Positions 3,920 through 49,286 of a DNA stretch of 64,000 nt are shown in pieces. A program made the position numbers and the translations under genes. The stretch covers positions 4,375,001-4,439,000 of the forward strand of contig NZ_CP015381.1 of the NCBI RefSeq assembly GCF_001854245.1, written 5' to 3'. Below the pieces are notes generated by a model. That model saw only the letters and a list, made by a program, of their open reading frames with translations, did not search any database and was not told where the DNA came from. This stretch comes from Desulfococcus multivorans. Its GTDB lineage: Bacteria > Desulfobacterota > Desulfobacteria > Desulfobacterales > Desulfococcaceae. Position 1 is the first letter of the stretch; each line of letters opens with the position of its first letter.

Positions 3920-3982
3920 CTCAACTTTCGACTTTCATAAGCCGTATCTATCCGGTCAACATCATGAAAGTCGAAAGTTGAG
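3920..3982 (-). repeat. Dispersed hairpin repeat, copy 1 (shortened loop, inverted orientation)
   Basis: Perfect 19-bp inverted repeat: left arm 3920-3938 beginning CTCAACTTTCGAC, right arm 3964-3982, 25-nt loop. The loop is the reverse complement of the loop of the copies at 6069 and 49211 with 13 internal nt missing. It lies between cls and the selenoprotein gene. It could act as a transcription terminator or a REP/MITE-like mobile hairpin; the conserved loop favours the latter. Confidence 0.85.
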
Positions 3983-4142
3983 ATTGAATTTTAAAAACGT
4001 CTATACAATCCGACGGAAAACGGTGCTGCCATCGGTAAACCGGCGCCCGAAATGCGTGATCCGTCCGCTCTAAAACAGCCTTGAATTTTTGCCCATTTCA
4101 GGACTACGGGAAACCCCGACGGCAAGGGAAAGGATACTGGCT

Positions 4143-4796
4143 ATGGCCTGTGATGAACAGCAGCGAATTGTCGTATTTCAGCAGCATGCCTCCGGTGCCG
4201 GTAAAATTCGAGGTATCAGACTATATGGAGGTGGGCAGTTCAAAATTCAGACGATCTCCATTGACGACGACCTTCCCCCGATATTGGACGAGACGGACCG
4301 TTACTTTCCGAAGACCCTTTACGCGGATCTGGTCCTGAATTATCTCAACCATCCGGATCTGTCCTGTGATCTTGTGGAAAAATGCATAGCACAGGGGATT
4401 CCGGTAGTGGTTCCCGGCAAGAAAGGGGGCTTGAAGGGCGTCTATACCGCCCCCACCTGATGCGGTCTTACCCGGCAGGTCGGCCTGGGACGTTATGGTG
4501 AACACTTTGGTCTACCCGAGTACAGCATCGAAATTTGCCGCGAAAAAATCGCAGACATAAAGGTTGTCCGCGGCGCCCCTTGTGGCGCGACATGGCAGGC
4601 AGCCCGGCGGATTATCGGACTCGATGTATCGGCGGCCGTGACACGCATCGGCCTGGAGGCTCAGTTTTTCTGTATCGCGGATCCGGCCGCTTGGGATCCG
4701 ATCTATGGACACAGCCCCGTCCATTATGCCGGAGAATTCCACATTGCCGCCGTCCGTCGTGCACTCAAGGGATTGAAATCAAAGAGCGTTGGGTGA
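4143..4796 (+). CDS. dfsP: DUF166-family selenoprotein with in-frame UGA (selenocysteine at residue 106)
   Basis: Reading through one in-frame TGA (4458-4460) gives a 217-aa protein that matches the DUF166 family on both sides of the stop. Before it: HPDLSCDLVEKC and GIPVVVPG. After it: FGLPEYSIEI, RGAPCGATW, GLEAQFFC and DPIYGHSPVH. The UGA lies in APT-Sec-CGL, giving a Sec-Cys pair. Further conserved-looking cysteines are at 147 and 177. A SECIS-like hairpin starts within 11 nt of the UGA. ATG 4143 is chosen because GGAAAGGA lies just upstream; an upstream TTG at 4089 is possible. A Sec-Cys pair suggests redox or metal chemistry, but the function is unknown. The symbol DfsP is from memory of family naming, not from a search. 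The alternative is a nonsense pseudogene, which the hairpin argues against. Confidence 0.85.
4461..4493 (+). promoter_or_regulatory. SECIS-like hairpin for selenocysteine insertion
   Basis: Directly after the in-frame TGA, CCCGGC (4471-4476) pairs with GCC-GGG (4483-4489, with a bulged T at 4486) around the loop AGGTCG. The apical GCAGGTCGGC is nearly the same as the E. coli fdhF SECIS apex GCAGGUCUGC. The GGU starts 17 nt after the UGA, against 18 nt in fdhF. Bacterial SelB reads such a loop within the coding sequence. Pairing was done by eye; the lower stem is weak. Confidence 0.8.
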
Positions 4797-6068: not shown

Positions 6069-6144
6069 CTCAACTGTCGACTTTCATGATGGTGACCGGA
6101 TAGCGGTGCCGGTAGGATACGGCCTATGAAAGTCGACAGTTGGG
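6069..6144 (+). repeat. Dispersed hairpin repeat, copy 2 (full-length loop)
   Basis: Arms 6069-6087 and 6126-6144 pair over 19 bp (one G-T wobble) around a 38-nt loop. The loop is the same as in the copy at 49211 apart from one base and includes GACCGGATAGCGGTGCCGG. Arm substitutions here (CTGTCGAC for CTTTCGAC) occur on both sides, so pairing is kept. That is compensatory change and argues for selection on structure or for transposition as a hairpin. Confidence 0.85.
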
Positions 6145-49210: not shown

Positions 49211-49286
49211 CTCAACTTTCGACTTTTGTGATGGTGACCGGATAGCGGTGCCGGGAGGATACGGCCTATGAAAGTCGAAAGTTGAG
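49211..49286 (+). repeat. Dispersed hairpin repeat, copy 3
   Basis: Arms 49211-49229 and 49268-49286 with the same 38-nt loop as the copy at 6069 (one base differs). The loop-proximal three bases of the left arm differ, leaving 16 paired bases. It lies between a plus-strand gene and the minus-strand tRNA-Pro terminator. Confidence 0.85.

Follow-up and report, generated by a model that had tools for sequence, protein, structure and literature searches.

The dfsP locus

The window discussed here, that is, the whole stretch of 64,000 nucleotides from the Desulfococcus multivorans genome (C1:4375001-4439000), carries near its beginning a gene that an ORF caller sees as two pieces. The standard ORF call ends at 4460; once the TGA is read through, one frame of 217 amino acids extends over 4143-4796, with the pair U106-C107 and with C147 and C177 (Table 1). 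The earlier note on this DNA had described the same cut at 4460, family-like sequence continuing past the UGA to 4796, and a Sec-Cys pair accompanied by Cys147 and Cys177, and in all three respects our analysis agrees with it.

Both family profiles span the interrupting codon. Pfam DUF166 (PF02593) matches residues 11-209 as a single domain across the UGA (133.1 bits), and the separate parts score 40.7 bits before the UGA and 90 after it. The corresponding COG is COG1810. The NCBIfam model NF041372, named 'DUF166 family (seleno)protein DfsP', is matched over its entire profile (1-203 of 203) with 322.4 bits at a cut-off of 200, and the Sec/Cys position stands ahead of the invariant Cys. The gene, dfsP, is the sole above-cut-off DUF166 match in the D. 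multivorans genome and has one internal TGA; a tblastn search of the plasmids gave no dfsP match. Two reviews have DUF166 in their tables of prokaryotic selenoprotein families (PMC9312934, PMC13188914), and the reference list of the former credits the DUF166 selenoprotein to Zhang and Gladyshev 2007. Because reviews list DUF166 and NCBIfam has an equivalog model, dfsP is a further member of a known family, very probably a selenoprotein of an already catalogued family and not a new one. In the literature searched (partial coverage), we found no statement on the fold or function of DUF166, nor the term 'DfsP' together with 'selenoprotein'.

Table 1. Features of dfsP and of the decoding genes in D. 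multivorans (positions without prefix are those of the window; C1 marks contig coordinates)
Feature	Position	Strand	Basis or remark
RBS-like AAGGGAAAGGA	4124..4134	+	8 nt ahead of the dfsP ATG; read from the sequence
dfsP CDS with in-frame UGA, 217 aa	4143..4796	+	Readthrough frame, Pfam and NCBIfam profiles; final stop TGA 4794-4796
N-terminal half, Rossmann/receiver-like by prediction	4143..4433	+	AlphaFold model m212eae1ea948
C-terminal half (residues 98-217), IscU/SufU-like by prediction	4434..4793	+	AlphaFold model mdb181ae8d573
UGA codon 106, putative selenocysteine	4458..4460	+	UGA 88 / Cys 22 of 110 copies
Cys107 codon	4461..4463	+	Kept in DfsP and in 9/9 distant DUF166
SECIS apical hairpin, CCCGGC-AGGTCG-GCC-T-GGG	4471..4489	+	6 pairs, bulged T, 6-nt loop; comparison with relatives
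Cys147 codon, APCG motif	4581..4583	+	9/9 distant, 54/54 DfsP-like rows
Cys177 codon	4671..4673	+	9/9 distant, 54/54 DfsP-like rows
His194 codon	4722..4724	+	9/9 distant, 54/54 DfsP-like rows
selA	C1:4307744-4309111		619 bits
selB	C1:4316369-4318261		361 bits
selD, in-frame TGA	C1:392680-393600
selD, in-frame TGA	C1:2844887-2845810
tRNA-Sec	C1:2485614-2485707		77.2 bits; also tRNA-SeC(tca) by ARAGORN
Second SelB (P0002, selB*)	C1:1714445-1716397	-	TIGR00475 274.3 bits, cut-off 242.25
Opal tRNA, anticodon UCA	C1:1716415-1716502	-	Directly ahead of selB*; tRNA-Sec model 45.6 bits

By eye, dfsP stands alone in the window, and the ORF upstream of it, on the opposite strand, is phospholipase-D/cardiolipin-synthase-like. 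Gene neighbourhood was considered as a clue to function and set aside, as no neighbour is general in the loci of the best 80 of 276 relatives. Companions in those 80 loci, named by eye on a crude gene calling that includes false ORFs, are an ABC-F-like ATPase gene near dfsP (12), a 127-aa protein just upstream (12) and, upstream in the same orientation, a formate-dehydrogenase-like gene (7). Just upstream of dfsP (3920-3982) also lies one of three window copies of an inverted repeat, CAACTTTCGACTTTCAT ... ATGAAAGTCGAAAGTTG, whose perfect arms measure 16-19 bases, the others being at 6071-6142 and 49211-49286. The repeat 19-mer has 242 matches with at most 2 mismatches in the whole genome and the reversed pattern has none; the element is highly abundant and resembles REP or MITE sequences.

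The Sec/Cys column among DfsP relatives

A search with the NF041372 profile across 395 genomes of the phylum gave an above-cut-off match in 57. Of these, 24 contain a copy interrupted by one TGA, and in the other 33 every copy is stop-free by the stop column. Eight of the 33 were included in the 30 fetched loci, each with Cys at the column. Together with the best 80 of 276 relatives from a scan of named genome contigs, the 30 loci (which include the D. multivorans copy itself) make up 110 copies. Codon 106 is TGA in 88 of them, TGC in 15 and TGT in 7, with no other codon, and these shares are not population shares because the two locus sets partly overlap (some genes are in both) and hold best-scoring copies. 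The residue after the column is Cys in 110/110. A quick tree built from 102 distinct proteins requires U and C to have exchanged at least 11 times. Positions invariant in 59 DfsP rows include Cys81, Cys/Sec106, Cys107, Cys147, Cys177, His194 and His200.

Outside the DfsP branch the column looks different. We fetched 11 further DUF166 proteins from the phylum, two of which turned out to be DfsP-like with Cys-Cys; the nine distant ones have Phe (6) or Leu (3) at column 106, together with an insertion ahead of the Sec column that is absent in DfsP. All nine keep Cys107, Cys147, Cys177, Asp185 and His194. Because distant DUF166 proteins have Phe or Leu here, Sec/Cys characterises the DfsP branch and not DUF166 as a whole, and by these alignments Sec is an addition of that branch to an older DUF166 site. 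The earlier note had proposed to look at this column in DUF166 homologs, taking an unrelated, non-Cys residue without conservation after the UGA as evidence against a selenoprotein. Such residues do occur in the nine distant proteins, but UGA or Cys is found throughout the 110 DfsP copies.

Some genomes hold two dfsP copies. A UGA copy is paired with a Cys copy in G132 (one copy with TGA, one without) and in the TRIP AH-1 record; among the pairs L068/L120, L091/L125 and L076/L092, the first are both UGA and the last both Cys.

The SECIS hairpin

In its likely form, the dfsP hairpin has six pairs and one bulged U, with the apex GCAGGTCGGC at 4475-4484 and the loop AGGUCG starting 16 nt after the UGA. 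The earlier note had likened it to the hairpin of fdhF, a comparison that holds for the apex and the spacing, with differences in the stem. The E. coli fdhF SECIS (MG1655) has 9/10 apex letters equal to dfsP, the loop letters AGGUC in common and its loop 17 nt after the UGA against 16 in dfsP. On the other hand, dfsP is without the long lower stem of fdhF, and compared with fdhF the bulged U lies on the opposite side of the stem, which in dfsP is the 3' side, or is missing. Folding the region downstream of the UGA, which that note had suggested as a check, lent no support: the hairpin alone is no more stable than shuffled sequence (4455-4510, z +1.65, 197/200 shuffles at least as stable; 4460-4500, z +1.03, 178/200). 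Because its stability does not rise above chance, the dfsP SECIS rests on its relatives and not on its own energy.

In the alignment of relatives, numbered from the U of UGA, the stem consists of positions 13-19 with 26-32 and the loop of 20-25, and the 101 distinct 75-base stretches comprise 81 Sec and 20 Cys copies. Standard pairs make up 89.2% in the Sec copies against 82.5% (sd 0.8) in shuffles, none of 1000 of which reaches that value, in a test that is inflated by the kinship of the rows; sliding the partner by 1 to 3 lowers the share to 22-66%. In the Cys copies the share is 60.7%, which 80/1000 shuffles reach. Mean folding energy over positions 10-39 is -11.4 kcal/mol in Sec copies vs -6.7 in Cys copies (p 1e-6), the loop GG at 21-22 is present in 81/81 vs 3/20, and the five core pairs are complete in 61/81 vs 1/20. 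Judged from these sequences, Sec copies preserve the hairpin, and in Cys copies it has decayed. Within the stem, pair 15-30, usually formed by two third codon positions, is C-G in 49, A-T in 23 and G-C in 4 of the 81 Sec copies, the remaining 5 having other combinations, and its type changes at least 8 times on the tree of 102 proteins. A covariation test with independent pairs of rows gave 2 supported pairs (4 ignoring support), too few for significance.

The D. multivorans copy fits this picture, as comparison places after its UGA a hairpin with GG in the loop, a feature for which energy alone gives no support. It shares the UGA/Cys column of DfsP (NF041372), and the only feature setting it apart is a C-U mismatch at pair 16-29, which also occurs in 27/81 Sec copies. 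Elsewhere, a Cys copy (TGT, L112:5038-5646) still carries the hairpin letters of Sec copies, which suggests that Cys has recently replaced Sec here and that the SECIS is a remnant.

Selenocysteine machinery

The earlier note saw no selenium genes in the window and supposed that the machinery, for which it proposed a genome search, would lie elsewhere. This is borne out: selA, selB, two selD (374 and 372 bits) and tRNA-Sec are all found above their cut-offs and all outside the window. The two selD matches, each containing a TGA, stand alongside one selA match in the genome. When the tRNA-Sec search was extended to 198 genomes of the phylum, it gave many tRNA-Ser/Leu-like false matches.

In the mechanism that we propose, UGA 106 would be decoded as Sec by the ordinary tRNA-Sec, SelA, SelD and SelB, and the SECIS at 4471-4489 would direct the insertion. 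The sequences show the frame, the family, the Sec/Cys exchange, the SECIS by comparison and the presence of the machinery; from these we infer that Sec is inserted in the cell, and since the UGA is read as selenocysteine in this mechanism, dfsP very probably continues past its apparent stop.

Protein architecture and the predicted IscU-like fold

The AlphaFold models have a mean pLDDT of 91.1 for the whole protein and 90.4 for the C-terminal half alone. Structural matches of the N-terminal half lie at model residues of about 4-143, none of them significant. With the C-terminal half as query, the Foldseek list opens with IscU/SufU entries throughout ranks 1-26 (E 0.088 to 0.94, none significant alone), with few different proteins behind the 26 rows and, for entries in complexes, the short chain taken as the scaffold by its length; rank 27 is a xanthine oxidase. 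VIA likewise aligns this half with ISCU2 (Z 7.7, rmsd 3.1, 92 residues), a Z below 8 that may mean little, as unrelated folds give such values, and the CO dehydrogenase medium subunit comes nearly level (Z 7.4). For the full-length model the best VIA Z is 7.8, with ISCU2 tied with response regulators and others, and the fold search against the PDB, run to E 10, gave 1301 matches, of which none lies at or below 0.001 (best 0.013). The DfsP profile had no match among PDB sequences up to E 5.

At the level of sequence, we looked for proof of IscU kinship and obtained none, as the hhalign and profile matches all fall short of significance. With hhalign, NifU_N ranks first of 32 against the wide DUF166 alignment (E 0.003, probability 10%, collinear over 92 columns) in a set that included 30 unrelated families and one reversed; the run in the opposite direction is weaker still, and against the DfsP rows alone NifU_N ranks 7/32. 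In a Pfam scan of DfsP up to E 10, DUF166 is the sole match and NifU_N (PF01592) is absent, and because this family profile has no match, DfsP is not filed under IscU. Distant DUF166 proteins weakly match the LplA C-terminus (E 0.044) and TIGR03905 TSCPD (E 0.046), both under the cut-off and both on the same stretch as the IscU match. The LplA C-terminus and TSCPD families probably share the SufE/NifU fold.

What DfsP would have in common with IscU, SufU and NifU_N is the predicted fold of the C-terminal half and a set of three Cys and one His. Scaffold proteins use such a three-Cys, one-His site to hold zinc or to build a cluster. There are also differences: DfsP has an extra Sec and an extra N-terminal domain, and the last cluster Cys of IscU/NifU_N stands beside the His, whereas in the hhalign alignment DfsP has no Cys after His194. 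One may ask whether DfsP is a selenoprotein whose C-terminal half has an unrelated fold with a zinc or thiol site. In favour of this, the structural and profile matches to IscU all lie below the usual significance. Against it, Foldseek and VIA both rank IscU first for the isolated half and the weak LplA C-terminus and TSCPD matches, under their cut-offs as they are, fall on the same stretch; we hold it to be distinctly the less likely case. The model comparisons make an IscU-like fold of the C-terminal half likely, if with a good deal of room for doubt.

A second SelB and an opal tRNA

The genome also encodes a second SelB, 29% identical to the first, directly preceded by an opal tRNA whose score for tRNA-Sec (45.6 bits) is just below the Rfam gathering score of 47. 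Read by eye, this tRNA has an 8-bp acceptor stem and an encoded CCA, and its two ends are AGGGGCAA and UUGCCCCU, the latter followed by U and CCA, giving A1-U72 and U73. The review PMC7609411 describes selC* tRNA-Cys with U73, which in Desulfobacterales has A1-U72 and an opal anticodon and is followed by a second selB, and it describes a shortened CysRS* beside selB*. The D. multivorans pair matches these described marks of tRNA and second SelB, but unlike the described loci it has no CysRS* adjoining selB*: no CysRS was seen among ORFs of at least 150 aa in C1:1706000-1724000. The two CysRS matches in the genome each cover nearly the whole profile; one is part of a 758-aa frame that joins a cysteine-synthase-like part to CysRS (L147:1495-3771, around C1:1621157-1622521, TIGR00435 370.6 bits) and the other stands separately at C1:2514675-2516063.

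Because the second SelB adjoins an opal tRNA with selC* marks, Cys could in principle enter at UGA, though for this genome a second, Cys-giving reading of the codon would be no more than a possibility. For dfsP, this would mean that its UGA is read as Cys by SelB* and the selC*-type tRNA, either always or under selenium shortage. Column 106 evidently accepts Cys, and among 20 scanned SelB loci (14 at 40% identity or more to P0002, the rest at 33-37%) a tRNA-Cys(GCA) is nearby in 11, a UCA tRNA in 7 and neither in 2. Moreover, DfsP is commoner where P0002-like proteins (at least 40% identity, 15/395 genomes) occur, namely in 7/15 genomes vs 50/380 others (p 0.002), but this association is uncorrected for kinship and five of the seven genomes belong to one family code (f76). 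Twenty of the 24 UGA-dfsP genomes have no P0002 match at E 1e-100, and of the other four, two are of the GCA type (G162, G187) and two of the UCA type (G000, G132); because of these 20 and the two GCA cases, the P0002-type SelB cannot be the general reader. With a full Sec system present, a hairpin that fits the ordinary SECIS type and no shortened CysRS* beside selB*, we regard Cys reading of dfsP as improbable and the ordinary Sec system as the likely reader of its UGA. A two-way codon, read as Sec through SelB or as Cys through SelB* and yielding a selenium or sulfur form of the IscU-like protein according to selenium supply, seems to us slightly more improbable still. That the UGA is a true stop, with gene decay or an error in sequencing behind the downstream part, as the two pieces of the ORF call and the instability of the hairpin alone might suggest, is barely conceivable given the same UGA codon in 88/110 copies, its repeated exchange with Cys codons on the tree and a conservation after the UGA that equals that before it.

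Proposed role and perspective

Taken as a whole, we consider it quite probable that dfsP is a Sec-decoding gene whose product joins a Rossmann-like N-terminal half to an IscU-like C-terminal half and places Sec106 beside a common Cys/His site. That site, Cys107, Cys147, Cys177 and His194, would be the one shared across DUF166, and Sec106 would be an extra, highly reactive selenolate next to Cys107, added by the DfsP branch. A Sec beside the first Cys may supply a fourth group of thiol type, one with greater reactivity or with redox activity. By analogy with the scaffold proteins, the most likely work of the protein would be that of a metal or Fe-S site, or of a site carrying sulfur or selenium, in which Sec106 would be redox-active or a ligand. 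The earlier note had suggested a redox or metal enzyme, a suggestion that is still an inference and that we make more specific here as a possible IscU-like site.

A proposed fold and active site could matter for DUF166, a domain of unknown function. Should the C-terminal half prove to be IscU-like, DfsP would count among proteins of the scaffold type, with a Sec adjoining a ligand Cys, and one could test DUF166 for an Fe-S or sulfur-carrier function. With an opal tRNA-Cys/SelB* pair and a Sec system together in one genome, the role of SelB* would likewise become testable on a defined UGA codon.

As to the surroundings of this pair (C1:1706000-1724000, by eye), the opal tRNA and selB* stand beside a ribose-type ABC transporter, two double-cubane-like genes of the 2-hydroxyacyl-CoA-dehydratase type with an activator ATPase, and XdhC-like, MobA-like and YedF-like genes.
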